A stretch of 48,534 nt of DNA from Fimbriiglobus sp. (lineage in GTDB: Bacteria; Planctomycetota; Planctomycetia; Gemmatales; Gemmataceae). Shown one piece after another: positions 1 through 34,292 of this stretch. Location of the stretch: the NCBI GenBank assembly GCA_025351325.1, contig JANXWE010000178.1, forward strand, positions 1 to 48,534, in the 5' to 3' direction. Numbering within the stretch: position 1 is the stretch's first letter; every line of letters starts with the position of its first letter. The translations under genes were made by a program, and so were the position numbers. The notes under the pieces were generated by a model that saw nothing but the letters and a program-made list of their open reading frames with translations, ran no database searches and was not told the origin of the DNA.

Positions 1-44
1 GCCTAAATCCGATTTACCTGACGGGCACGCAGATTGATCACCCA

Positions 45-82
45 GGCGAGCCGACTGGCGTGAGCCGTCGGTGCGGTACTTG
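45..82 (+). repeat. 38-nt dispersed repeat, copy 1
   Basis: This 38-nt segment is the exact reverse complement of 1989-2026. Related copies lie at 1814-1848 (inverted) and 1890-1926 (same strand, degenerate). It begins GGCGAGCCGACTGGCG. The similarity extends outward: an ATTGATC-type stretch precedes it and an AAAACCACCAAC-type stretch follows, and both recur near the other copies. It flanks the flavoprotein gene on its 3' side while the other copies lie beyond its 5' side. Confidence 0.8.
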
Positions 83-3498: not shown

Positions 3499-4911
3499 AT
3501 GATTCGATTCTTTGCATGCCTCTTACTGCTTTTGTCGGCCTCAGCGCTGTCCGCGGCCGACCCCACGCCGTGGGCGACTTATCGGGGCAACCCAGCGCGC
3601 ACCGGCAATACCGACGGCCAAGCGGTGCCGGACAAACCGGTTGTCCTCTGGGCCGTGTCGTCCCAAGATCATTTCATTGCGGCTCCGGTGCCAATCGGCG
3701 ATTCGCTTTACGTCTCGGGTTTTGGCGCCTTCAACCGACCGACGATTGCACTCTACCCGACGGTCGATGGCAAGAAACCGCTCTGGTCGCGTTCGGCACC
3801 CTACCTCCGCTTGGCGTCGGTATCCTCGGCCGCCGTGTCGGGAAATTCACTCGTCTTCGGCGATGGCCTCCATCAAGATTCCGGGGGCGTCCTCCACTGC
3901 CTCACCGCCGACACGGGCCGACCCGTTTGGCAACTGCCGATGCCCGGCGACTTGATGCACCTCGAAGGGGCACCGACCATCGCCGACGGCCGGGTGTACA
4001 TGGGCGCCGGCGCCGGAGGTGTCATTTGCGTGGAACTCGACAAAGCCACGCTCGACGGCAAAGACGTGACCGCCGCCGAGGTGGCGACGCTCCAAGAGGC
4101 CAAGTGGAAAGAACTGCTCGCCAAGTACGAAACAGACAAGAAGAAAGACCCGGACTTCGCGGTGCCACCGACGGAAGACAGTTTGCTGAAACCGGAGCCG
4201 AAGAAGGTCTGGCACAAAGGGGAGAAGAAATGGCACGTCGATGCGCCGGTCTGCGTCGTCGGCGACAACGTGCTGGTCTGCACGAGCTATCTGGACAAAG
4301 AAAAAGTCGGCGAGAAGGCCCTGTACTGCTTGAACGCCAAGACCGGCGAGACGCTTTGGACGCAGCCGCTCGCGCTCAATCCATGGGGCGGAGCCAGCGT
4401 CAGCGGGGAGACGGTGATCGTGTCCGGGAGCAGCGTCGGCTATTACTTTGCGCAATTGAAAGGGGCCAAGGGGGAACTGGCCGCGTTCAACCTCGCCGAT
4501 GGCAAACCGAAGTGGAAAAAGGACGTCCCCGGTGGCGTCGTCGGTGCCGTGGCCATTGCGGACGGACTCGCCGTCATCACGGCCACCGACGGGAAAGTTC
4601 GCAGCTACGCTGTGAGCGACGGCGATCGCAAATGGATTTACGACACGAAGTCGCTGACGTTCGCCCCCGTGGCGATCACCGGGGGGATCGTTTACATCGG
4701 CGACTTGGTCGGCGGAATCCACGCGGTCACGCTCAAAGATGGCCTGCCGAAGTGGAAGATCGATCTGGGTACCGATCCGGCCGTGAAAGCACCCGGGATG
4801 GTCTACGGTGGCGTCACCGTCCACGGTGGCAAGCTGTTCGTAGGAACGTGCAATTTGGAAGGCCCCAACGCCCGCAAGGGGACGTGCTTGGTTTGCATCG
4901 GGGTGAAGTGA
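3499..4911 (+). CDS. Exported PQQ-type beta-propeller repeat protein
   Basis: A 470-aa protein. The N-terminal signal peptide (MIRFFACLLLLLSASALSAA) is followed by repeated Trp-containing blades typical of PQQ-like/BamB-like propellers: GKKPLWSR, GRPVWQLP, GETLWTQP, GKPKWKKD, DGDRKWIYD and GLPKWKID. A roughly 70-residue Lys/Glu-rich insertion near residues 185-255 interrupts the propeller. No quinoprotein dehydrogenase catalytic residues are apparent, so a scaffold or binding role in the periplasm is more likely than an enzyme. The last codons (…RKGTCLVCIGVK) are echoed by a displaced copy at 5778-5816, so the 3' end looks like the site of a past insertion. Confidence 0.82.
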   Translation: MIRFFACLLLLLSASALSAADPTPWATYRGNPARTGNTDGQAVPDKPVVLWAVSSQDHFIAAPVPIGDSLYVSGFGAFNRPTIALYPTVDGKKPLWSRSAPYLRLASVSSAAVSGNSLVFGDGLHQDSGGVLHCLTADTGRPVWQLPMPGDLMHLEGAPTIADGRVYMGAGAGGVICVELDKATLDGKDVTAAEVATLQEAKWKELLAKYETDKKKDPDFAVPPTEDSLLKPEPKKVWHKGEKKWHVDAPVCVVGDNVLVCTSYLDKEKVGEKALYCLNAKTGETLWTQPLALNPWGGASVSGETVIVSGSSVGYYFAQLKGAKGELAAFNLADGKPKWKKDVPGGVVGAVAIADGLAVITATDGKVRSYAVSDGDRKWIYDTKSLTFAPVAITGGIVYIGDLVGGIHAVTLKDGLPKWKIDLGTDPAVKAPGMVYGGVTVHGGKLFVGTCNLEGPNARKGTCLVCIGVK

Positions 4912-4921
4912 GTGGGGTTAT

Positions 4922-5061
4922 GTTGGAGTTCAACCTTCAGGTTGTCTTAGTCGACCAAGTCTTCGAGGTCGGACGCCCGGGGTCGGGCCTCGAAGACTCG
5001 TCCCGACTGACCGTTCGACATTCGACAGCACTTGAAGACAACCTAAAGGTTGAACTCCAAC
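4922..5061. mobile_element. Palindromic MITE-like element
   Basis: The outer arms 4922-4948 and 5035-5061 are 27-nt near-perfect inverted repeats (GTTGGAGTTCAACCTTCAGG at the left end). An inner pair, 4958-4968 and 4988-4998 (AGTCTTCGAGG), is also perfect. The element starts 10 bp after the PQQ gene stop and ends 13 bp before the next start codon. It has no coding capacity. Its form fits a REP/MITE-type non-autonomous element. Confidence 0.7.
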
Positions 5062-5074
5062 GGAGAAAACAATA

Positions 5075-5440
5075 ATGAATGCAATCGCCACACGTCTTCT
5101 TGTGTTTGCCCTATTTGTGATCAGTGCCTGTCTCGCTTTTTCATTTTACGCACGATCATCCCAACAGAAGGTGTGCATTCGCAATTCAACTGGCAAAATG
5201 ATCAATGATATCGTTGTGTTCGTCGACAACAAACCCATTTTCTGTGGAGGCATCAACAGCGGTGAGTTTGAAACTTATAGATTCACCCCAAGCACTGATG
5301 ATGCGGCATTTGACATTTCGTACAGCGTCGATGGCAATTGCATCAGCCACTCCAACGTGGGATACATCACGACCGGGGATAGCACTCGCCATACGATTGA
5401 ATTGCTGTCCAACGACTATAAATACACATCTAGCCCCTGA
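5075..5440 (+). CDS. Small orphan, putative lipoprotein or membrane-anchored protein
   Basis: A 121-aa protein of unknown function. The N-terminal hydrophobic segment, residues 8-25, contains a lipobox-like VISAC with C19, so it may be lipidated; otherwise it is a single-pass anchor. The rest is a soluble, probably beta-rich domain with Cys near residues 32, 54 and 88. Base composition is visibly AT-richer than neighbours, with codons such as AAT, ATT and TCA common, which fits acquisition by transfer. GGAG lies about 10 nt before the ATG. It lies between the palindromic element and a convergent small gene, inside the segment bounded by the two copies of the PQQ 3' end. Confidence 0.65.
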   Translation: MNAIATRLLVFALFVISACLAFSFYARSSQQKVCIRNSTGKMINDIVVFVDNKPIFCGGINSGEFETYRFTPSTDDAAFDISYSVDGNCISHSNVGYITTGDSTRHTIELLSNDYKYTSSP

Positions 5441-5448
5441 TGTGCTTC

Positions 5449-5709
5449 TCACGGGCGAATCCGAGCTTTCGAAACGTAGAAGTTGCCGATGTTGGCTTTT
5501 TTCACGTCGTGAATAGCAGACGCGACCGCATCCTCCAACGATGCTGCCGACCGACAGAACACCATAGACATGATTCCATCCTGGAAACTCAGTATCGAAT
5601 CGTCACAATCCGCTTCAAAGAGCGCATCTTCGACCGTTTCGCTGTGCGCAGTCCGGCTATCCAGAATAAAAGTAAATTCGTGTTTGCACTCGGCTGTATT
5701 CTTCGTCAT
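5449..5709 (-). CDS. Small conserved protein of unknown function
   Basis: An 86-aa protein that starts MTKNTAECKHEFTFIL. It shows the pattern of a small family I recall from cyanobacteria and planctomycetes: an N-terminal FTFIL strand, a central DALFEADCDDS segment, a strand with acidic and hydrophobic residues, and a C-terminal LEDAVASAIHDVKKA helix. The family role is unknown to me. I chose ATG 5709 because an AGAGGG ribosome site lies just upstream; longer in-frame starts would reach into the displaced PQQ remnant. The stop codon lies 8 bp from that of the convergent lipoprotein-like gene. Confidence 0.6.
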   Translation of the reverse strand: MTKNTAECKHEFTFILDSRTAHSETVEDALFEADCDDSILSFQDGIMSMVFCRSAASLEDAVASAIHDVKKANIGNFYVSKARIRP

Positions 5710-5777
5710 CACTCGCCCTCTTTTCACGATAATTTGTGTGGGCTTCGCAGCAGCCCGCAATCCTCCGCCCACACGCT

Positions 5778-5816
5778 CGCAAAGGGACGTGCTTGGTGTG
5801 TTTTGGGGTGAAGTGA
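5778..5816 (+). pseudogene. Displaced 3' end of a PQQ-propeller gene
   Basis: These 39 nt match the end of the intact gene (4873-4911) at 34 of 39 positions and end in the same TGA. In frame they read RKGTCLVCFGVK-stop against RKGTCLVCIGVK-stop. Four of the five differences are in three synonymous codon changes plus one Ile-to-Phe codon (two bases). No other part of a propeller gene is present. It marks the right boundary of the inserted segment 4912-5777. Confidence 0.75.
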
Positions 5817-5835
5817 ATATACTGTTTTACTAAGT

Positions 5836-5883
5836 CGGAAGCGTGAGCGACGGTCGAAGCGAAAACCCTCGCTCACGCTTCCG
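5836..5883. terminator. 15-bp hairpin at the 3' end of the M28 peptidase gene
   Basis: The arms CGGAAGCGTGAGCGA (5836-5850) and its exact complement (5869-5883) enclose an 18-nt loop. It lies 35 bp beyond the peptidase stop. There is no clear T-tract, so it may be a REP-type hairpin acting on mRNA stability rather than a classical terminator. Confidence 0.55.
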
Positions 5884-5918
5884 GCTCGCCAGGAGTGTTT
5901 CACTCCGTAGCGCATCGA

Positions 5919-6827
5919 TTATTCCCAAGCCCACGACGCTGAACGTGCCAACGCCAACTGCGTCACTCGGGACATGAACTCGTAGTCGAGTGTATCCGGT
6001 TTGTCGGTCGCGCGGTGGTAGTGCGGATTCCGGAACTCGGACGTGTCCGTCCACATGATGGCCGGGATGCCAAGCTTCCAAAACGGTGCGTGATCGCTGC
6101 GGTGCAGGTGCCCGAAGTACTTCTCGATACCGAGGTAAATCTTCAGCGCGAGAACCGGCGAATGCGGGACGTACGTGGCCGCGAGCGAGAGGAGCTTTTC
6201 AGCGATGGAATTAGAACGGCGGTTGGCCAGGAGGCCGAGAAAATCGCCGATGTCGGGTGCGCCCACGCCCGGCAAGCCCGGCGGCATTCGCTGAGAACCG
6301 GGCGCGATCGTGCAGTAGCCGACCATCTCGAAAATGTGAGCTTCTGCGATGGCCCACGCGGATTGGGACGCGGCATAGGCCGCGAATTCGGCGCTCCCCA
6401 AGAGACCGTCTTCTTCCCGGTTGAATAGGACGATCATCGCCGAGCCGATCCCGTGCTCTCGGATCAGCCGCGCACATTCCAAACAGACCCCGACTGCACT
6501 CCCATTGTCATCGGCTCCTGGCGTGCCGGGGATCGAATCGTAGTGAGCCCCGAAAAGCAGGTAGGTTCCGTCTTCGGAAGGCCCGGTGGAAACGACGATG
6601 TTGTCGTAGGTGCCTTGGAGCTGCGGCGTGTACCCGAAGCCGGTGAGTTCTCGGATCAGAAGATCTCTCGCCCGGATGTTGGCCTTTCGCTCGGCAATGT
6701 AGTGACGTGGAAACGAGATCATCTCTACGGAGGCCCGGAGCCTTTCTGCCGACACGCCGCTCAGCACCTCGCGGGTACCGGCATCGGCTGTTTTCGGGCG
6801 ACGGTTTTTCGAGCGCGCGACGATCAT
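5919..6827 (-). CDS. M28-family zinc aminopeptidase-like protein
   Basis: A 302-aa predicted metallopeptidase releasing N-terminal residues from peptides. The zinc-ligand pattern of family M28 is visible: H95 in GAHYDS, the bridging D106 in GADDNGS, the catalytic/ligand pair E138-E139 in NREEDG, E167 in FEMVGY, and H271 in YHRATDKPDT, with the companion SDHAPF segment at 244-249. In many M28 enzymes the residue equivalent to E167 is Asp, but an LEM-type variant also exists. No signal peptide is seen, so it is probably cytoplasmic. It lies 31 bp downstream of the yebC-type gene on the same strand and is likely co-transcribed. Confidence 0.85.
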   Translation of the reverse strand: MIVARSKNRRPKTADAGTREVLSGVSAERLRASVEMISFPRHYIAERKANIRARDLLIRELTGFGYTPQLQGTYDNIVVSTGPSEDGTYLLFGAHYDSIPGTPGADDNGSAVGVCLECARLIREHGIGSAMIVLFNREEDGLLGSAEFAAYAASQSAWAIAEAHIFEMVGYCTIAPGSQRMPPGLPGVGAPDIGDFLGLLANRRSNSIAEKLLSLAATYVPHSPVLALKIYLGIEKYFGHLHRSDHAPFWKLGIPAIMWTDTSEFRNPHYHRATDKPDTLDYEFMSRVTQLALARSASWAWE

Positions 6828-11476: not shown

Positions 11477-11881
11477 ATGCGCGTGAAAATGCCACGATTG
11501 ACACGGCGATCCATTTCACTCGTTCTGTGCATTTTGCTAATTGCGGCGTGTTCTACATATCTGGTTTGGACTTTGTTGCCGAGAAAGATAGTTTGGCATC
11601 CCGCTAATACCTATATAACTGGGAATGGTGGAGAGCAGGTGACATTGGAAGAGAGGGAGAGGATTGGCAAGTGGGTTTGGCACGTTATCACGACACAAAA
11701 ACCTCTGTCCAAGAATATTCAGGTTTTTTTGCCTAACGATTACTACGTTGTGTTTGTTTATGGAAATCAAACTGGAGAGGTGCTTGCAGTCAACTACTCG
11801 CATGGTTTAATCATTAGACTTAAGGATAGTAGCCAATTTACATTCAACCAAGATACGTATATGGTTATTGACAAAGAATAA
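11477..11881 (+). CDS. AT-rich orphan, putative lipoprotein or membrane-anchored protein
   Basis: A 134-aa protein of unknown function. A basic N-terminus (MRVKMPRLTRR) precedes a hydrophobic segment with a lipobox-like LIAAC at C25, so lipidation or a single membrane anchor is likely. The remainder is a compact domain rich in aromatic and beta-branched residues (for example NIQVFLPNDYYVVFVYGN) with no recognised motif. The gene is markedly AT-richer than its surroundings, with codons such as TTA, AAT and ATA frequent, suggesting horizontal acquisition. It is flanked by a terminator upstream and about 140 bp of AT-rich non-coding DNA downstream. The general design resembles the orphan at 5075-5440, but I see no sequence similarity. 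Confidence 0.6.
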   Translation: MRVKMPRLTRRSISLVLCILLIAACSTYLVWTLLPRKIVWHPANTYITGNGGEQVTLEERERIGKWVWHVITTQKPLSKNIQVFLPNDYYVVFVYGNQTGEVLAVNYSHGLIIRLKDSSQFTFNQDTYMVIDKE

Positions 11882-12020: not shown

Positions 12021-14753
12021 ATGGCGTTTCTCAAACAAGCTGGCAGCCTGATTGTTTTTCTGCTCACCTTTGCCATTCCAACATCGGTTCGGGCTGAGGA
12101 CTTGAAGGATGCCCGTGGTGTGATCACACGCCAATGTCTGAGCTGCCATGGGGCGGATGCGGAGAAGGGGGTGTTGCGGCTGGATCAGCTTCCCTCGGAT
12201 TTGACAAAAGACGCTGTCTATCGGCAGTGGCTACGGGCCTTTGATCGTGTGGAAAGCGGGGAGATGCCGCCGAAGGAGTTTGGGAAGCTGCCGGAGGCGG
12301 ATCGCAAGCTTTTTCTGGCATCGTTGAAGCAACCACTGATCCAGGCGGAATCGGCTCGGGCTGTCCCGTCGGTCCGGCGGATGAACCGGGTTGAATACGA
12401 AACGACGCTGCGCGACCTTCTGGGGTTGCCAGGCCTTCGTGTCAAAGAGACTTTGCCTGAAGACGGTCGCCAGCATGGTTTTGACAAGGTGGCCGGGGCG
12501 CTCGACATTTCACCGATTCACATGGCGAAGTATCTCAAGGCCGCGGATTTCGCGTTGCGTCAAGCCATCAATGTGCCGAACGAGGCCGTTAAGTCCAAGC
12601 TCTGGCGTGAGGCAGCGGCGAAACAGAATTCGGCACAGGCGGCCATCGCCGTCCACAGCGGCGTACCGATGAACGGGCGGACCCTCGCTCCGGGGTTGAA
12701 GACCCACATCGTCGGCAACCCCAAGGAGGACTTCGGCAATACCTATCGCGGTGCGAGCTTTGGTGGCGAAGCGGAATCCGTGGCCGTACTGACCGGTGTG
12801 ACGGCACCCCACCTTCCAGACGGGTTGCAGATCGACCGATGGAACGTGCCGGCGGCTGGATTGTACACTGTGCGGTTTTCGCTCTGGGGCCTGCGTTGGT
12901 CACGGACTAAGGCCGAACCGGCCGTGCGGAACGACATCCGCCGGTACATGGCGTTCGGCGCACCGTACACACTCGATGCGGCAACCAAGCAGTGGTCGGG
13001 GACTACCGTTGCGGAAACGCTGGAGCTAGTCGGCCGAGAGAACACACAGTTTTATGGCGACGCCGAGACGGTCCATGTGATCCGCGCATCGGTGAAGGGG
13101 GTGACGATCGGCTATTTCGATGCGTTGTCCTTGAAGCCGAAAACTCACGAATTCAAAGTCTATCTGAACCCCGGCGACCGAGTCTCGTTTCACGCGATGA
13201 CGCTGTCGGCCACCAGTGCCGCCAACTATGCCACCCAGGACGGGGTCCGCAGTTACGAAGGGCCGGCCATCGCTTACGACTGGTTTGAGGTCGAAGGGCC
13301 AGTGGTTGACCAGTGGCCACCCGAAAGCCGGAGTCAGCTCTTCGGCAGCAAGCCGATCGCCCAGTGGAATGAGAAGCCCAAAGCGGGGACCGTGACACCG
13401 CTCGGGCCGGACGCGGTAGCACTCCTGATGAAGTTCGCCGAGCGTGCGTTCCGACGACCCGTTGTCAGGGCCGACATCGACCCTTACATCAAGCTGGTTG
13501 AGCAGCAATGGGCACGGGGCCAATCGCTGCAAGACGCCTTGCTTTCGGGCTATCAAGCGTTGCTCTGTTCGCCCGATTTCCTCTTTGTCGGTCTCGAAGG
13601 GGAAGGACGTGACGGCAAAGATAAAGCCGCATACGCTCTGGCTTCCCGCCTCTCGTTTTTCATCTGGAACTCCATGCCCGACACGACCCTGCGTGACTTG
13701 GCAGCCAACGGCAAATTGCACGAACCGGCCGTCTTGAAAGCCCAACTCGATCGGTTGCTCGGTGACCCACGCTCCGAGCGGTTCATCGCGCATTTCCTGG
13801 ACGAATGGCTGGACATGAAGAAGCTCGACTTCACCACGCCCGACCCGCAACTGTACCCCGAATTCGACCCCTGGCTGCGTGATTCCATGCTAGCCGAGAC
13901 GCAGCAAACATTCCGCAAGCTTCTGATGGAGAATCGCAGGGTCGGCCAACTGATTCAATCCGATACTATCCTCATCAATCAGCGATTGGCCGAGCAGTAT
14001 GGCATCCGTGGCGTGAATGGCTCGGAGTTCCGCCCCGTGAAGGTGGACAAAACCATGCACCGCGGCGGCTTTTTAACCCACTCGTCGGTATTGCGCGTGA
14101 CCGCGAATGGTACTTCGACGTCACCGGTGTTACGGGGTGTCTGGATCGCCGAACGGATGCTCGGCATCGAACGGAACCCGCCACCGCCGAACATTCCCGC
14201 CGTCGAGCCGGACGCCACCGGAGCGGTGACCATCCGGCAGATGATCGAGAAACACCGTGCCGACCCGGTCTGTGCCTCGTGCCATGCCCGCATGGATCCG
14301 TTCGGCTTGGCCCTAGAGAATTTCGATGTCATCGGTGGTTGGCGTGACCGCTACCGGCTCTCCGGCCAGCCGAAGAAAATCGCCCAAGGCAAGGAGATGG
14401 TTGACGAGCCATCCCTCGATGTCGTGAACGGAATTTTCACCCCTTACCGCGCGAAAATACGACTTGGCTCCAAAGTCGACGCGACCGGTGAGCTTGAGGA
14501 TGGGCGAAAGTTCGACGATGTTGCCGGTCTGCAAGCACTCTTGCTCAAAGATGAAGACAAGCTTGCCCGAAATCTCCTGCGGCAATGGTCAATCTACGCC
14601 ACCGGAGCGGGTAACCGCTTCTCGGATCGCGACGCGATTGAGGCGGCCATCACTCGCACCCGGACCGACGGCCATGGCATCCGATTATTACTCCACGAAG
14701 TCGTCCAAAGTGAAGCCTTCCGTCGCACGGGGCCAGCCGGCGGGGGACGTTAG
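12021..14753 (+). CDS. DUF1592-family cytochrome-c-like exported protein
   Basis: A 910-aa protein of the planctomycete DUF1587/1592/1588/1585 architecture. A signal peptide (residues 1-25, ending VRAED) precedes a cytochrome-c-like domain with CLSCH (C39, C42, H43). MNRVEYETTLRDLLGL near residues 121-136 is the DUF1587 hallmark. The central part includes a carbohydrate-binding-like region, then FAERAFRRPV (DUF1595) and the DUF1592 segment with LFIWNSMPD-type FFIWNSMPD. CASCHARMDPFG (C751, C754, H755) is in DUF1588, and DUF1585 ends the protein. The biochemical role is not established; periplasmic redox or polysaccharide breakdown has been proposed for the family. It pairs with the DUF1552 gene 89 bp downstream, the usual arrangement. 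Confidence 0.92.
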   Translation: MAFLKQAGSLIVFLLTFAIPTSVRAEDLKDARGVITRQCLSCHGADAEKGVLRLDQLPSDLTKDAVYRQWLRAFDRVESGEMPPKEFGKLPEADRKLFLASLKQPLIQAESARAVPSVRRMNRVEYETTLRDLLGLPGLRVKETLPEDGRQHGFDKVAGALDISPIHMAKYLKAADFALRQAINVPNEAVKSKLWREAAAKQNSAQAAIAVHSGVPMNGRTLAPGLKTHIVGNPKEDFGNTYRGASFGGEAESVAVLTGVTAPHLPDGLQIDRWNVPAAGLYTVRFSLWGLRWSRTKAEPAVRNDIRRYMAFGAPYTLDAATKQWSGTTVAETLELVGRENTQFYGDAETVHVIRASVKGVTIGYFDALSLKPKTHEFKVYLNPGDRVSFHAMTLSATSAANYATQDGVRSYEGPAIAYDWFEVEGPVVDQWPPESRSQLFGSKPIAQWNEKPKAGTVTPLGPDAVALLMKFAERAFRRPVVRADIDPYIKLVEQQWARGQSLQDALLSGYQALLCSPDFLFVGLEGEGRDGKDKAAYALASRLSFFIWNSMPDTTLRDLAANGKLHEPAVLKAQLDRLLGDPRSERFIAHFLDEWLDMKKLDFTTPDPQLYPEFDPWLRDSMLAETQQTFRKLLMENRRVGQLIQSDTILINQRLAEQYGIRGVNGSEFRPVKVDKTMHRGGFLTHSSVLRVTANGTSTSPVLRGVWIAERMLGIERNPPPPNIPAVEPDATGAVTIRQMIEKHRADPVCASCHARMDPFGLALENFDVIGGWRDRYRLSGQPKKIAQGKEMVDEPSLDVVNGIFTPYRAKIRLGSKVDATGELEDGRKFDDVAGLQALLLKDEDKLARNLLRQWSIYATGAGNRFSDRDAIEAAITRTRTDGHGIRLLLHEVVQSEAFRRTGPAGGGR

Positions 14754-14842: not shown

Positions 14843-16114
14843 ATGAAGCTTTCTCGTCGAACATTTCTCCAGGCCTCGGGTGTTTCCTTGTCACTTCCCC
14901 TGCTGGAAGCGATGAGTCCTGTCCAGGGTGCAGAATCACCCGTTGGGAAAACCGACGAAACACCTCGGCGGATGGTTGCCATCTGTACCAATCTTGGTGT
15001 GCTCGAACGCCACTTCGTCCCCAAGAAGCCCGGGGTGGGGTACGAGCTGACACCCTACTTACAAACGATGCATGATCTCCGGGATCAATTCACCGTCATT
15101 TCCGGCAGTTCACACCCGGATGTCACCGGTGGTCACTCGGCCGAGGCTGCATTTCTCACGGCGGCGCCCCACCCGGGTGCGGCGTCGTTTCGGAATTCGA
15201 TTTCGCTCGACCAGTATGCCGCGGAGCGCATTGGCTTAACGACACGCTTCTCGTCGCTGTCCCTCGTCGTCGCGCAGAACGGGAACCAGTCGCTGTCGTT
15301 CACATCCGACGGCGTGATGCTGCCCGCGGAGCGTAGCCCGGCACAAGTATTCCGCACGCTCTTTGTCGAAGGGGACAAGGCGACCGTCGATCGCCAGGTC
15401 GAGCAACTGCGTGTTGGTCGGAGCATCCTCGACACGGTCGGTGAGCGGGCCAAGTCGCTGCAAAAATCGGTGGGCAGCGCGGATCGCGATCGGCTTGACC
15501 AGTATTTCTCATCTGTCCGCGAAGTGGAGCGTCGCTTGCAGACCGCTCAGGAATGGGAGAAAAAGCCCAAGCCTAAAGTCGATGCGCCGCCACCACGCGA
15601 TGGTGAACATCTGCTGGAAAGACTCGGAGCGATGTACGACTTGATCCGCCTCGCTCTGACCACAGACTCCACCCGGATTATCACGCTGATGATCCGCCTG
15701 GACGGTTTCGGGGCCCATGTTCCCGGTGTCTCCGACGAGAGCCACGGCTTGTCCCACCACGTCGGCCGGGCCGACAAGCTCGATCAGCTTCGCAACCTCG
15801 AACTGGCCCAGTTCATCGAGTTGGCCAAATTGCTCAAGGCCCTGGGTGCCTCGAAAGAAACCGGCGCGACCTTACTCGACCGAACCAGCATCCTCTACGG
15901 CAGCAATCTCGGCAACGGTAACAACCACGACAATAAAAACCTGCCGATCCTCCTCGCTGGTGGTGGCTTCAAGCATGGCCAGCACTTGGCCTTCGACAAG
16001 GACAACAACTATCCGCTTCCCAATTTGTTTGTCAGCATGCTCCAACGCCTCGGCATCGAATCGGACAAGTTCGCCGGTGCGACTGGAACCATGCGGGGGT
16101 TGGAAACAAAGTGA
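14843..16114 (+). CDS. DUF1552-family Tat-exported protein
   Basis: A 423-aa protein. The N-terminus has a twin-arginine signal (KLSRRTFLQASG, then a hydrophobic run to about residue 25), so export in folded form is expected. The body matches DUF1552, which has an alkaline-phosphatase/sulfatase-like fold: SGSSHPDVTGGHS near residue 90, a central region with REVERRLQTAQEWE, LMIRLDGFGAHVPGVSDESH, and SNLGNGNNHDNKNLPILLAG close to the C-terminus. It is almost always encoded next to DUF1592 proteins, as here, so a joint periplasmic function is likely. ATG 14843 is preceded by GGAAC. A long hairpin follows the stop. Confidence 0.92.
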   Translation: MKLSRRTFLQASGVSLSLPLLEAMSPVQGAESPVGKTDETPRRMVAICTNLGVLERHFVPKKPGVGYELTPYLQTMHDLRDQFTVISGSSHPDVTGGHSAEAAFLTAAPHPGAASFRNSISLDQYAAERIGLTTRFSSLSLVVAQNGNQSLSFTSDGVMLPAERSPAQVFRTLFVEGDKATVDRQVEQLRVGRSILDTVGERAKSLQKSVGSADRDRLDQYFSSVREVERRLQTAQEWEKKPKPKVDAPPPRDGEHLLERLGAMYDLIRLALTTDSTRIITLMIRLDGFGAHVPGVSDESHGLSHHVGRADKLDQLRNLELAQFIELAKLLKALGASKETGATLLDRTSILYGSNLGNGNNHDNKNLPILLAGGGFKHGQHLAFDKDNNYPLPNLFVSMLQRLGIESDKFAGATGTMRGLETK

Positions 16115-28945: not shown

Positions 28946-31900
28946 CTACTTTTTCCCACGCTCCTTCGCTTTCCGCATCCGCGTCAAGAAGTCGTCGCCG
29001 TCGTCGTCCACCGGCTTCACGTCACGCACGGGTGGAGCGCTCGGTAGCGGCGGGCCACTGGTCTGGCTGGCGTACTCATCGGCACCGGCGGGGGCGGGTT
29101 CGCCGGCGACCGACGCATCCGGCTCGAACTTGCGGGTGGCCCGTTTCTTCGCCAGTGTGTCGGTCACAGCCAGTTTGCGTTTCATCAAGTTACCGAGGGT
29201 GCTGTCCTCGTCGGTTTCTTCGAGCGTCTGCCGGCGGAGCTTCGCCCAGATGCGTTGGCCCCACTGCCGGAGTTCCTTCGATTCCAAGCTGATGCGGCGG
29301 GCGCCGACGTCGAAGAGCAGGAAGAACGCCGCCGCGAAGACGAGCCAGTACCAGAACGGCTGTAGTGATCGGATGCTCGTCGGGGCTTTGCGGAAGAAGT
29401 CGGCCAAGGTGGCGAGCTTGGGCACCCCGGCGGCATCCTCCGCTTCTTTGAAATAGTTCCCCCCCGTGGCGGCCGCGATCCGTTCGAGCAGCGGGGCGTT
29501 CGTTTCCAAGTCGGCGTATTCGGGCGAGTAGGGCACCGTGACCCCGGCGCGGGCGCTGTCGAAGGTCTCGGCCCCTTTGCTCCCCTCGACCCGGACGAAG
29601 TACGCCCCGGCCTCCTCGGCGACGAACTCCGCTTCGTACAGGCCAGCCCCCTTCGATTTGAATTCCAGCGTCGGCACTTTCTCACCGGGGCCGGGTTTGC
29701 TCGGCAGGCTCACCGCCCCTTTGAGCGTCAGCCCGGCGACCGGTTTGTCTTTGCCGTCTTTGGTATCGCGGGCGTCGACGAGGATGCGGATGCGGCCATC
29801 TTTGTATTCGGTCACCAACGTCAAATTGCCGCGCTCCGCTTCGCGCATCGCCCAGGTCACGGTCTGTTCCCAGTGCTTTTGGTAAATGTCCGACCCGGCC
29901 CAATCCTTGTCCCAGCCGAGCACGCCCGACTTCGGCTGGGTGCGGGCATCGGCGGTGAAGGCGACGGATTTCCCCAGCCCGTAGCGCCACGACGCCAGCA
30001 CGGGAAACCGCGCCCCCGACTGTTCGTCCACCGGCCCCTCAATGTGCATGGTGCAGAGCGGCGAATCCTTCTTGGTGGTGCGCACGAATCCGTACAGCCG
30101 CGGTAGCACGTTGGGTAACCCGTCGGCGGGGCCACCGCGCGCCACCCACGTCGGCGTGAACGGATCTTTGTAAATGAACGACTGGCTGATGCGGCGCGTC
30201 TCTTTGATGTAAATCGCCGGCAGCTTCGTCGGGTCGGTGACTTTGTGGAAGTTGCCGGGCTTGCCGTTGCCGTCGTCGGTGCCGTTGGCGATGATCTGCA
30301 TCTTGGCGTCTTCGTTGACGCCGTGCGTCGCCACGCCGATGGTCGTGCAGGTGATGCCGGCCTTCTTCATCGCGGCGACGGCGGCTTGCCCCGGGCCGGA
30401 GTAATTCGGGTCGCCGTCGGAAATGACGATGACGTGCCGGGTGCTGAGCTTGTGCTTCGGATCGGAGAGGGTGTCGGCGGCGGCCATCAAAAATGGGTCG
30501 AAGTCGGGCATGTCGCCGGGGCTCATCTTGTCGATCTTCGTGTAATGGACTTCTTTGTCGTCGCCGATCTCTTGGAACGGGATCTGCCAATTGACGCTGC
30601 CGCCGAACAGGCCGAAGTCAACGACGCCGACCATGTCCATCGACCCGAGCCGCTGCACCGCGAGTTTCGCGATCACCTTCTGCCACTTGTTGCCGTCGGC
30701 CATCTCGGACGCGTGCATCACCAGCACCAGGCCCCCTTTCCCGGCCGCCTTCTTGGCTTTGATCTCGCAATCAACTGGCAACGCTGCTTCGATCGGCGTC
30801 TGCTGATACCCACCGGGGCCGTAGGCATCAGGGCCGCCGACCATCACGAGGCCGCAGCCCTGATCGTGGACTTGCTGGCGGATCGTTTCCATTTGATCGT
30901 TGGTTAACAAATCGGCGGGGACGTTGGCGAGCACGATGCAATCGTAGTTGCTTAGGAAGACACCAAGATCGTTCTTGTCGCCGGGCAGTTTATCGATGGG
31001 GAGGAAGTCGAGCCGCTGCTTGGCGTCGCGCAGGCGTTGAATCAGGTGCAGGTGGGGCGACTTCGCCTCGACCGAACCGGGGTCGACGAACAAGATGCGT
31101 TTCTGACCCCGGGCCACCACGGCGGCGGACGCCCGATTGTTCGCGCTGCGATCCCCCGGCAGGCCGGCGACCGTTTCGGCACCGGGACGTTCCACCGACG
31201 AAATGGGCAGGAACGCGGCCTTGTAGGTGTAAGACGTTTCCGACTTCGATTGGTCGCGGTCGTGGAACCGGAAGACGTTCAACCCCGGCACCAACCGGAC
31301 CCGCGGCGGGTTCTTCTTCGTGTCGAGTACCTGTTCCGTCAGTTCGATCTCGACGCTCGATTCCTTGTTCGGCTGCTGCACTTCGAGATCGTCGCCCTGC
31401 CGGCCGACGCGGGTGAGGTCGAGGTAGCCATCCACTTCCCGGGTGGGGTGGGCGTTGCGGATCAGCACCCGGATCGGCAAGCGGGCACCCTGCGTGGCGA
31501 GCGGCGGCGCTTCCACCGATTGCACCAGCACTTCGTTCTCGTTGATGAATCCAGGGGCGAGTGCGATGGTGTCGATGGAGACGCCGTTCTTGCGTGCGAG
31601 TTCCGCTTGCGCTTCGGCGCTCCCGAGGTTCTCGTTCCCGTCGGACACGAGCACGATCCGCCGCGAACTGCCTTCGGGGAACGAGGCCAGTGCGAGCTTG
31701 ATGGCCGCGCCGATGTCGGTGTAGTTGCCATCGATAAACCCGGCGGCGCGTTCGTCGAGCGGCAGTCGATCCACCGCCGCCGGTGGATACGCGAGCTTCG
31801 GTCGCTTCCCGAAATAGATCACGCCGGTCTGGTCGGCACGGTGGGCGATGCCGCGCTTGGCGATGGCGGTTTCGATCAGGCCGCGGATGCGCTCCCAACG

Positions 31901-32572
31901 CTGGTCGATCGGTTCGGAGCCGTCTTGACTTGCCCGCAAATCTTGCGGCACGCTCAGCGACCGATCCACGATGAAAATCACCGTGACGTTCTCGGACGGC
32001 CGGCGTACCCGCGGTTCAGCGAGCGCCATCACCAAGCAAGCCACGACGAGGGCCCGTGCCGTGATCGCCAGCCATTTCCGGGTACTGCCCAGCCCCGACA
32101 AACTCTTGCGACTGATCACAAACACCAACGGCACGAATACCAGCAGCACCAACCACCACGGCCGGGTGAACTCCGTCCAGCGGATCGCTTTGACCACCTC
32201 GGCTAGACCCTTATTCAATTCGCGGCCGACCAACCCGCCCAAACCGATCAACAGCACTGACATCAACACGAGTGCGAACGTGGCCGACCAACGCCGGGCG
32301 AAGACGAGGACGAGTACCGCGAATGCGAAGCCGATGGCCGGGATCAGGAGGATCACTTCGGAGATGAGCGTGGTGTTGCCGTCGTCGCTGAGTTTGAACT
32401 TCCACTTAGCAAGAGCTATCGATCCAAACGCAAAGGCGAGGAATCCACCCGCCCAATAGCCAAGGGGACGCATTCTGCGCCGGCGTAGCGCGGCCGAGCC
32501 GAGTACCCCCGTTAAAAAGAGGAGAACCAGTGCGAACCAGTGCGTTTCAAAGAAGTCGATCAAGCGGGCCAT
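28946..32572 (-). CDS. Large membrane protein with VWA and GATase-like domains
   Basis: A 1208-aa protein. Several membrane helices lie in residues 1-180 (starting MARLIDFFETHWFALVLL), with another near 1065-1085 and a cytoplasmic C-terminal tail ending FLTRMRKAKERGKK. A VWA domain begins near residue 198 with an intact MIDAS-type DRSLS. A class I glutamine-amidotransferase-like region follows near 545-600 (YDCIVLANVPADLL … GGPDAYGPGGY). A second VWA-like unit near 615 has MHASE where DxSxS is expected, so its metal site looks degenerate. Beta-sandwich segments come next. Such proteins are common in planctomycetes and resemble BatA/BatB-like stress proteins; the role is unknown. I chose ATG 32572, preceded by AAGGAAAG; longer frames run through a repeat. 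Confidence 0.85.
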   Translation of the reverse strand: MARLIDFFETHWFALVLLFLTGVLGSAALRRRRMRPLGYWAGGFLAFAFGSIALAKWKFKLSDDGNTTLISEVILLIPAIGFAFAVLVLVFARRWSATFALVLMSVLLIGLGGLVGRELNKGLAEVVKAIRWTEFTRPWWLVLLVFVPLVFVISRKSLSGLGSTRKWLAITARALVVACLVMALAEPRVRRPSENVTVIFIVDRSLSVPQDLRASQDGSEPIDQRWERIRGLIETAIAKRGIAHRADQTGVIYFGKRPKLAYPPAAVDRLPLDERAAGFIDGNYTDIGAAIKLALASFPEGSSRRIVLVSDGNENLGSAEAQAELARKNGVSIDTIALAPGFINENEVLVQSVEAPPLATQGARLPIRVLIRNAHPTREVDGYLDLTRVGRQGDDLEVQQPNKESSVEIELTEQVLDTKKNPPRVRLVPGLNVFRFHDRDQSKSETSYTYKAAFLPISSVERPGAETVAGLPGDRSANNRASAAVVARGQKRILFVDPGSVEAKSPHLHLIQRLRDAKQRLDFLPIDKLPGDKNDLGVFLSNYDCIVLANVPADLLTNDQMETIRQQVHDQGCGLVMVGGPDAYGPGGYQQTPIEAALPVDCEIKAKKAAGKGGLVLVMHASEMADGNKWQKVIAKLAVQRLGSMDMVGVVDFGLFGGSVNWQIPFQEIGDDKEVHYTKIDKMSPGDMPDFDPFLMAAADTLSDPKHKLSTRHVIVISDGDPNYSGPGQAAVAAMKKAGITCTTIGVATHGVNEDAKMQIIANGTDDGNGKPGNFHKVTDPTKLPAIYIKETRRISQSFIYKDPFTPTWVARGGPADGLPNVLPRLYGFVRTTKKDSPLCTMHIEGPVDEQSGARFPVLASWRYGLGKSVAFTADARTQPKSGVLGWDKDWAGSDIYQKHWEQTVTWAMREAERGNLTLVTEYKDGRIRILVDARDTKDGKDKPVAGLTLKGAVSLPSKPGPGEKVPTLEFKSKGAGLYEAEFVAEEAGAYFVRVEGSKGAETFDSARAGVTVPYSPEYADLETNAPLLERIAAATGGNYFKEAEDAAGVPKLATLADFFRKAPTSIRSLQPFWYWLVFAAAFFLLFDVGARRISLESKELRQWGQRIWAKLRRQTLEETDEDSTLGNLMKRKLAVTDTLAKKRATRKFEPDASVAGEPAPAGADEYASQTSGPPLPSAPPVRDVKPVDDDGDDFLTRMRKAKERGKK

Positions 32573-32682: not shown

Positions 32683-32751
32683 CTAAAACTTCACCCGCTG
32701 CACCCGGTGGTTCTCCGTGTCCACCACATGCACGCGTCAATTTTGATCGAC
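32683..32751 (-). pseudogene. Displaced 3' end of an NHL-repeat gene
   Basis: These 69 nt match the 3' end of the intact NHL gene (33357-33425) at 61 positions and finish with the same TAG. On the minus strand both read RVHVVDTENHRVQRVKF-stop. The five differences within that shared peptide are all synonymous (CGC/CGG, GTC/GTG, CAA/CAG, CGA/CGG, CAC/CAT). Upstream the copy breaks down, with an in-frame stop and then loss of similarity at 32752, 7 bp from the toxin gene's stop. It marks the far end of the inserted toxin-antitoxin segment. Confidence 0.82.
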
Positions 32752-32758
32752 CAGGACC

Positions 32759-33055
32759 TCAAGATCTCGATTGCCAATCCGCAGGGTTTCGGGAGTGGTG
32801 AAAGACCGCGACGACAATGATGCGGTCGAGCCGAACACGGCAGAAAATGCTGTACGGGAATCGAATGAGAATCGCCTGCCGAATACCTCGTCCCACGCGA
32901 GGAAAGCGGGTTGGATGTTCGGCGATCACATCCAGGTTGCCTTGAATTTCCGCAACGAAATCATCGCCGAGTCCCTGCTGTTCGCCCTCGTACCAGACGG
33001 CGGCTTGGTCGTACTCTGTGCGAGCAATTCGCCGATAGCCGATTGGGAGTTTCAC
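32759..33055 (-). CDS. RelE/ParE-family toxin
   Basis: A 98-aa toxin of the ParE-like branch, which poisons DNA gyrase or cleaves mRNA depending on the member. Family features are the TEYDQAAVWYE helix, GLGDDFVAEIQGNLDVI, PTRFPRVGRGIRQAILIRFP and the C-terminal IVVVAVFHHSRNPADWQSR. I chose GTG 33055 because it overlaps the antitoxin's TGA as GTGA, the classic coupled arrangement; an in-frame start at 33097 would lie inside the antitoxin gene. The module is inserted between the intact NHL gene and a displaced copy of its 3' end, so it is recent cargo at this site. Confidence 0.9.
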   Translation of the reverse strand: MKLPIGYRRIARTEYDQAAVWYEGEQQGLGDDFVAEIQGNLDVIAEHPTRFPRVGRGIRQAILIRFPYSIFCRVRLDRIIVVAVFHHSRNPADWQSRS

Positions 33056-33279
33056 GGATGCATCCGGGCGTGGGTTTCCGCTTTGACTTGTTCCCATGGG
33101 ATGAAATCATCCGGATTCGCGTCGTCTTCATCGGCACGCCGTTCTAACTCTTGCATTTGGGCTTCCGACAAGAGCGGTGGCCCTTTAGGAAGCACACTGG
33201 CCCAGAGGTCATGGGCCAGTGCCATGCGTTCGTCTCGGGTGAGTCGATCCAAACCGAGCGATTCGATGGTCGGCAGCAT
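33052..33279 (-). CDS. Addiction-module antitoxin (TIGR02574 type)
   Basis: A 75-aa antitoxin. It fits the addiction-module component family: LTRDERMALAHDLWASV in the N-terminal half, LSEAQMQELERRADE in the middle, and PWEQVKAETHARM at the C-terminus, which in the family wraps the toxin. The stop codon overlaps the toxin's GTG start by sharing GTGA, so translation is coupled and antitoxin is made first, as expected. Autoregulation of the pair is likely by analogy. It begins 77 bp downstream of the NHL gene's stop on the same strand. Confidence 0.88.
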   Translation of the reverse strand: MLPTIESLGLDRLTRDERMALAHDLWASVLPKGPPLLSEAQMQELERRADEDDANPDDFIPWEQVKAETHARMHP

Positions 33280-33356: not shown

Positions 33357-34292
33357 CTAAAACTTCACTCGTTGGACGCGGTGGTTCTCCGTGTCCACCA
33401 CGTGCACGCGCCCCTTTTGATCGACGGCCAGTGCCCACGGGTCGGCCAGTTGGCCCGGCTCGCGGCCGGGGGTGCCCCAAGTGGCCAAGGGAACCCCTTC
33501 TTTCGTCAACTTTTGCACGCGGTGGTTCCCCCGCTCGACGACGTACAGTTCCCCGGCGCTGTTGAAGGCCAAGTCGTACGGGAAGTGGAACTCGCCCAAG
33601 CCTTGGCCCGGCTTGCCGAACTCGCGGACGAACTCGCCGTCGGTCGTCAGTACCTGGATGCGGTGGTTGCACGCATCGACGCAATACAAATGCCCGTCCG
33701 GCCCGAAGGCCATCGCCCGGACCCGGTTGAACTGCAACGGCCCTTGCCCGTTCGCGCCGAAACAGGCGACGAACTGTCCATCGAGATCGAGCTTCGTGAT
33801 CCGGTCGTTCTGGCCGAACTCCGCGACGTAATAGAACCCGGCCGCATCTTGGACGCAATCGGAGATGTACCCGAACTGCCCCGGTGATTTCCCTGCTTCG
33901 CCGCCGATCTTCTTCAGTTCGGTGCCGTCGTGGGTGTAAATCCGCACGCAGTGGTAGTGCGAATCGGACACCATCAAGTTGCCGTCGCGGTCGATGCTCA
34001 AGCCGCTGGGCCGACCGTTGCGGAAATCGGGTGTGGTGAACGTGATGCCGAGGTGCTCGCCGTCGAGATCATAGGCTTGGATGCGCGCGGTGAAATCAAC
34101 CAGAAAGAGACGCCCTTGCGGATCGATGGCCACGGCCCGCGGCCGGGCGAGGGCACCGTCTTGCACGCCGTGCTGCCCCCAGACCAACTCCGGCGCACTC
34201 GACCGCCGGCCGATCCCGAACGACAGCGCGACCGCCCCCACGACGATGAGCAACACCAGAACGAGAACCGTGCGCGGATTCATACCGGACAT
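33357..34292 (-). CDS. NHL-repeat beta-propeller protein
   Basis: A 311-aa protein with one N-terminal membrane or signal segment (residues 7-25, TVLVLVLLIVVGAVALSFG) followed by about six NHL repeats. The repeats share the pattern P-x-A(V/I)DxxGxLxVxDxxNxRI, for example ARPRAVAIDPQGRLFLVD, NRVRAMAFGPDGHLYCVDAC and DPWALAVDQKGRVHVVDTEN. Such propellers mediate binding; no catalytic residues are visible. It is predicted to be anchored in the membrane with the propeller outside. ATG 34283 is an alternative start. Its last 69 nt are duplicated at 32683-32751, with the toxin-antitoxin module between the two copies. Confidence 0.85.
   Translation of the reverse strand: MSGMNPRTVLVLVLLIVVGAVALSFGIGRRSSAPELVWGQHGVQDGALARPRAVAIDPQGRLFLVDFTARIQAYDLDGEHLGITFTTPDFRNGRPSGLSIDRDGNLMVSDSHYHCVRIYTHDGTELKKIGGEAGKSPGQFGYISDCVQDAAGFYYVAEFGQNDRITKLDLDGQFVACFGANGQGPLQFNRVRAMAFGPDGHLYCVDACNHRIQVLTTDGEFVREFGKPGQGLGEFHFPYDLAFNSAGELYVVERGNHRVQKLTKEGVPLATWGTPGREPGQLADPWALAVDQKGRVHVVDTENHRVQRVKF

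Follow-up and report, generated by a model that had tools for sequence, protein, structure and literature searches.

The window, a stretch of 48,534 nucleotides from the genome of Fimbriiglobus sp., carries on its forward strand a single-copy gene for a PQQ_2 beta-propeller protein of 470 amino acids with a signal peptide (open reading frame at 3499-4911; Pfam PF13360, E = 4.7e-32). As evident from the alignment, the 3' end of this gene (4862-4911, TGA included) recurs 905 nt downstream at 5767-5816 on the same strand, and the gene-attached and displaced copies are identical at 42 of 50 positions (84%). The gapped local alignment of the two ends showed a score of 61 versus a maximum of 34 among 300 shuffles. 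The sequence-only reading had reported a 39-nt match between 4873-4911 and 5778-5816 with 34 identical positions; this match is exact as claimed, its real extent is 50 nt, and the common orientation and stop codon were borne out by the alignment. Codon by codon, we also found the three synonymous differences (AAG/AAA, GTT/GTG and TGC/TGT) and the one Ile/Phe difference (ATC/TTT) that had been described within the 39-nt core; the additional 11 nt contained two synonymous differences (CCC/CCA and GCC/GCT) and one Asn/His difference (AAC/CAC). Upstream of 5767, neither the DNA nor a translation in any frame resembled the PQQ gene. When the insert was searched against the same genome at the DNA level, the PQQ gene end was matched at this locus only, so the 39-nt match is not a motif repeated across the genome.

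The interval between the two copies was, as had been noted, AT-richer than its surroundings, with 46-53% GC compared with about 60-63% on either side. It contained a palindromic element of ~140 nt (4922-5061, forward strand; own-genome DNA search, BLAST and fold), an open reading frame for a putative lipoprotein or secreted protein of 121 amino acids (5075-5440, forward strand) with no match in Pfam, NCBIfam or PADLOC, and a gene for an accessory protein of 86 amino acids (5449-5709, reverse strand) that resembled PDC-M06B (PADLOC PDLC04388, E = 1.5e-13). The 86-residue protein matched positions 6-70 of the 174 in the profile, which is the N-terminal part of this candidate defence family; it was patchily distributed within the family (24 of 95 genomes), and homologues in some relatives had an extra HTH-like C-terminus that was absent from the window copy. 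Beyond the displaced end, a repeat search revealed a dispersed palindrome of a second kind (5833-5886, forward strand), which is very abundant in the relative G003, followed by a convergent Peptidase M28 gene (5919-6827, reverse strand; PF04389, E = 9e-27); in the relatives, the M28 gene was not beside the PQQ gene and was located elsewhere or absent.

The palindrome that had been reported between the PQQ ends proved to be real, with 27-nt arms at 96% and the inverted ends GTTGGAGTTCAACC...GGTTGAACTCCAAC, and was one member of a dispersed family with a length of about 140-150 nt. This family gave 53 BLAST hits in 0.9 Mb, 12 of which were near full length, and had dozens of members genome-wide; no target-site duplication and no significant Rfam family were seen for it. 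The element at 4922-5061 was predicted to form a very stable fold (z = -6.6) and was flanked by a T-rich left side and an A-rich right side; it may serve as a two-way terminator. Although the element occurred in the inserts at PQQ and L114, enrichment in inserts could not be claimed, as the L114 contig was chosen for carrying it. Another dispersed repeat family (GAGCCGTCGGTGCGGTAC...) was present in both orientations near the start of the window (42-82, 1814-1851 and 1989-2027). At 11477-11881, the window contained another AT-rich small open reading frame without a clear family in a stretch of 42-47% GC.

We compared the PQQ locus with those of related genomes. The propeller protein was matched in 55 of 59 genomes with at most one near-full-length orthologue in each, the closest at 86% at the amino acid level. 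Among 30 loci read, two of which were ended by the contig end, no second PQQ gene end was found nearby besides that of the window itself. All of these relatives thus had a single gene end, and no empty site was found because the downstream neighbourhood of the window was not common to the relatives examined; in the closest relative (G002), for example, an RNase-HI-like gene directly followed the PQQ gene, and the synteny differed from that of the window. The PQQ end of G002 resembled the attached copy more than the displaced copy (42/50 versus 36/50), and most of the polarised changes fell on the displaced copy. We found no change in affinity toward the 3' end along the PQQ gene or along the NHL gene described below, including the changed affinity of the 3' part of the PQQ gene that the sequence-only reading had proposed to look for.

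A second case in the window, on the reverse strand, came from an unbiased repeat search. Here, an NHL-repeat propeller gene (33357-34292; PF01436, E = 5.7e-29), whose own 3' end lies at 33357-33425, was followed by the antitoxin (33052-33279; PF09720 Unstab_antitox, E = 1.8e-13) and the ParE/RelE toxin (32759-33055; PF05016, E = 2.3e-7; start codon inferred from the sequence) of an inserted TA pair. The displaced NHL end (32683-32751), identical to the attached end at 61 of 69 positions, began ~7 nt past the toxin stop codon, and a VWA-domain gene identified by domain match (28946-32572) was located downstream of it. In G003, a VWA gene was also downstream of the NHL gene, without the TA pair.

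As a control, we scanned 563 gene ends in 0.9 Mb, looking for matches to each in the 2.5 kb that follow it, in the 2.5 kb upstream and in permuted windows; sampling covered about 18% of the genome. The downstream comparison revealed eight strong matches, compared with an average of 0.4 expected from the permutations, and the upstream comparison revealed one. Two of the downstream matches and the upstream match belonged to the same locus, L093, which was rejected as a whole-gene tandem family. The other six were displaced ends, at PQQ, NHL, sdhA, an epimerase gene, a Gfo/Idh gene and L092 (a weak case with a spacing of just 135 nt); six in 563 genes is not an unbiased rate, as contigs were partly chosen for the palindrome and two cases lie inside the window. 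L096 was rejected as a case since a 5' end was repeated on the other strand. A mirror arrangement was observed in L083, where the 5' end of a SecA-like gene together with its upstream region was repeated ~1 kb upstream (14521-14748 and 15585-15812; 91% over 228 nt).

The additional cases had the following gene orders. The sdhA locus (L073) contained sdhA, VapBC with a PIN toxin, the displaced sdhA end, a second VapBC and sdhB. The epimerase gene was followed by an orphan antitoxin, an antitoxin/RelE-like pair, the displaced end and a GmrSD-type restriction gene, with the RelE-like toxin being assigned by eye in the absence of a Pfam match. At Gfo/Idh, a small lipoprotein gene was located between the gene and its displaced end. 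In three relatives (404 genes in 0.76 Mb), the only clean case was smc, and stronger hits were repeats or tandem paralogues; in the complete, single-contig relative G035, smc was followed by a gene for a 268-residue protein of unknown family, the displaced smc end and an HNH gene. Two further loci of G035 (L123 and L132) were set aside as integron-like arrays, with IntI-like integrase genes and attC-like repeats, as was a CRISPR-like repeat array (L134/L135). The anatomy of a gene, a short accessory cassette and an isolated second gene end is therefore not confined to PQQ: several unrelated genes of this genome have it, and so does smc in G035. The isolated cases retained about 50-100 nt of the gene end and had inserts of ~0.6-1.3 kb; at NHL, epimerase and smc, the displaced end started within about 8 nt of the stop codon of the last cassette gene. 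As an event class, the replacement of the 3' end that had been proposed for PQQ, or an insertion carrying a gene end, was thus supported by the recurrence at other loci, whereas its direction at PQQ was not, given that the relatives were closer to the attached copy and that the affinity did not change along the gene.

The cassettes also differed between species. The sister species G002 had the order sdhA-vapBC-sdhB with a single TA pair, and in G003 and more distant relatives, sdhA was followed by sdhB without TA genes; sdhA and NHL thus both have TA-free or single-TA relatives, in contrast to PQQ, where the relatives have a single end and synteny is lost. In L073, the two VapC proteins were 46% identical compared with 87% for the two sdhA ends, and the cassette and gene end were therefore not simply duplicated together. 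Three related TA pairs, with no displaced end, were present between the epimerase gene and dapA in G002 (L220, G002:C137, 1940-3771). In G003, a 1.4-kb insertion, probably an insertion sequence, split the epimerase gene itself (L230, G003:C156, 2137-3518); the DNA match showed an overlap of about 5 nt.

Across the cases, the copies were mostly 84-90% identical. Summed over PQQ, NHL, sdhA, smc and Gfo/Idh, the differing codons comprised 16 synonymous and 7 nonsynonymous ones, and the smc copies differed additionally by an in-frame codon. A simulation of duplication, in which the displaced copy subsequently drifts and the attached copy is under purifying selection, predicted ~68% nonsynonymous differences (pooled P < 0.001); the values for individual loci were 0.04 for PQQ, 0.015 for NHL, 0.035 for Gfo/Idh and 0.64 for sdhA. 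Coding selection on the displaced end, as the sequence-only reading had proposed, is therefore weakly indicated by PQQ alone and strongly by the pooled cases. Because the synonymous excess rejects duplication followed by neutral drift, most of the divergence between the copies looks older than the displacement. The relatives also allowed changes to be polarised. At NHL, the displaced copy kept the states of the relatives at three codons (G002, G003 and G001) and the attached copy was derived; the same was seen at two of three codons for Gfo/Idh and at two codons for smc, each with one relative. Such a pattern would follow from displacement of the native end by an incoming one that is now attached to the gene. 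At PQQ and sdhA, by contrast, most changes were on the displaced copy, and the direction there may be the reverse; the displaced sdhA copy had decayed with nonsynonymous changes.

We consider these loci to be most plausibly scars that arose when recombination with a related lineage's DNA set a small cassette and an already diverged gene end behind a resident gene; we assign this reading a probability of roughly 0.55. The donor would be a related lineage with a small cassette, such as a TA pair, a candidate defence gene or a gene for a small secreted protein, behind the orthologous gene. One-sided, homology-anchored recombination would place one crossover inside the common gene; at the other end, the join would lie just upstream of the stop codon of the resident gene and would involve either no homology or a few bases. 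That gene would remain intact, a cassette would be gained, and a second, already diverged gene end would lie beyond the cassette. Long or near-identical repeats would presumably let the cassette drop out again, and hence short diverged scars alone would persist. The cassette contents were ParE/antitoxin at NHL, VapBC at sdhA, RelE-like with antitoxins at epimerase and a PDC-M06B-like protein at PQQ. We found no donor in which gene and cassette join in the same way, and the PQQ locus argues against the recombination reading, since relatives nearer to the attached end and changes on the displaced copy also fit duplication and drift. The decay of the sdhA copy, the constant affinity along the PQQ and NHL genes and the single clean case in 0.76 Mb of three relatives likewise count against it.

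The main rival is an insertion with long target duplication, in which 50-100 nt of the target near the gene 3' end were duplicated; being non-coding, the downstream copy would then have drifted. Such an event has precedent in restriction-modification genes, where the duplications vary in length and measure around 100 bp (PMC3874152; PMC1643837), and the direct repeat of the target around an inserted gene unit that it requires is present at these loci. The decayed sdhA copy and the direction of change at PQQ fit it as well. The pooled synonymous excess is against it (P < 0.001), as are the individual values for PQQ (0.04), NHL (0.015) and Gfo/Idh (0.035); an origin of both copies from one target by duplication thus disagrees with the pooled data, is marginal for PQQ and is compatible with sdhA. 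The derived states on the attached copy at NHL, Gfo/Idh and smc are also contrary to it, and overall we regard this explanation as somewhat unlikely. Collapse of a tandem paralogue, with a complete further PQQ gene lost except for its last 50 nt, would explain the orientation and the common stop codon, and whole-gene tandem paralogues do exist in the genome (L093). However, a decayed paralogue, which the sequence-only reading had offered as one of its two explanations, is highly improbable because the PQQ gene is single-copy and no genome gave more than one near-full-length match, and because the 30 loci of the relatives have no second copy. There is also no decayed gene body before the displaced end, with nothing similar upstream of 5767, and every isolated case keeps only about 50-100 nt.

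Attachment sites in protein genes are short repeats at gene 3' ends with mostly silent differences. The displaced ends resemble them in both respects, and a site-specific recombinase might have targeted a small element to gene 3' ends, with the element giving the replacement end (attL/attR). In contrast to this expectation, the several target genes are unrelated, their ends have no common core sequence, and the inserts of ~0.6-1.3 kb contain no recombinase gene among the open reading frames between the copies; we therefore find attachment-site scars quite unlikely. A chimeric assembly of strain variants in a metagenome-assembled genome also deserves consideration, as the genome of the window is a 382-contig draft and the three named records of the same genus are Fimbriiglobus MAGs. 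Here, the copies are mostly too different (84-90% identity) for a common k-mer to explain the joins, the same anatomy is found in the single-contig G035, and the independent assembly of G002 has TA cassettes in the same places behind sdhA and the epimerase gene, all of which leave a chimera with very little probability.

It has long been an open question how TA and defence cassettes that have neither a transposase nor an integrase get into chromosomes. A scar that recurs, mostly around TA modules, suggests a recurrent route that puts them behind genes while leaving these unbroken. The process can be read from isolated gene ends, as these mark the insertion boundary, make it possible to polarise the direction and lend themselves to genome-wide counts. 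Should other planctomycetes show the same pattern, one could test directly whether a cassette moves together with the end of the gene behind which it settles. The pattern would also caution that, in some genes, the last codons may differ in ancestry from the remainder. As a more general and tentative idea, which we consider rather doubtful, TA and other small selfish cassettes of planctomycetes might spread between related species as units of a gene end plus a cassette, in which the homologous 3' end guides the cassette to the place directly behind a conserved gene, silently replaces the last codons and displaces the native end.

To place these scars among known systems, we compared them with three types of insertion. 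At prophage and island attachment sites, the insert is likewise flanked by two short, directly repeated copies of a gene 3' end, and the coding function is preserved; these sites differ from the cases described here, in which the insert lacks a recombinase, there is no common core and the targets are many and unrelated. For restriction-modification genes, insertion with long target duplication has been described (Nobusato et al. 2000; Furuta et al. 2010; reviewed in PMC3874152). In both situations, a selfish or defence unit without a transposase lies between direct repeats of the target, whose length varies and is around 100 bp. In our cases, however, the repeats are gene 3' ends with the stop codon, the cargo consists mostly of small accessory or TA genes, and divergence between the copies seems to have taken place in coding sequence, ahead of the displacement.

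Hybrid genes with foreign C-termini are found in fungal mitochondria, in Allomyces atp6 and in Glomus atp6, atp9, cox2 and nad3, where an inserted 3' end and a mobile ORF are followed by the displaced native 3' end of 52-279 nt; the native end groups with relatives, and the gene is still expressed as a hybrid (PMC3630166). The order of gene, insert and displaced gene end is the same in our cases, and a pattern pointing towards grouping of the displaced end with relatives is seen at NHL, Gfo/Idh and smc but not at PQQ and sdhA. The fungal mobile ORF encodes a homing-type endonuclease, whereas the inserts described here contain none and are located in a bacterium rather than in a mitochondrion. 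Domain and profile matches revealed no nuclease family in the PQQ, NHL, Gfo/Idh, epimerase and smc inserts, and the HNH gene in the smc case lies just beyond the displaced end, outside the insert. The sdhA insert encodes a PIN-domain VapC toxin, which belongs to a ribonuclease family and is not a homing endonuclease. If cassettes do spread together with gene ends, this would be an endonuclease-free bacterial counterpart of the C-terminus-replacing mobile ORFs of fungal mitochondria. Insertion with direct target repeats is already known, and the main new result here is the recurrence of displaced gene ends behind cassettes that are mostly TA modules.
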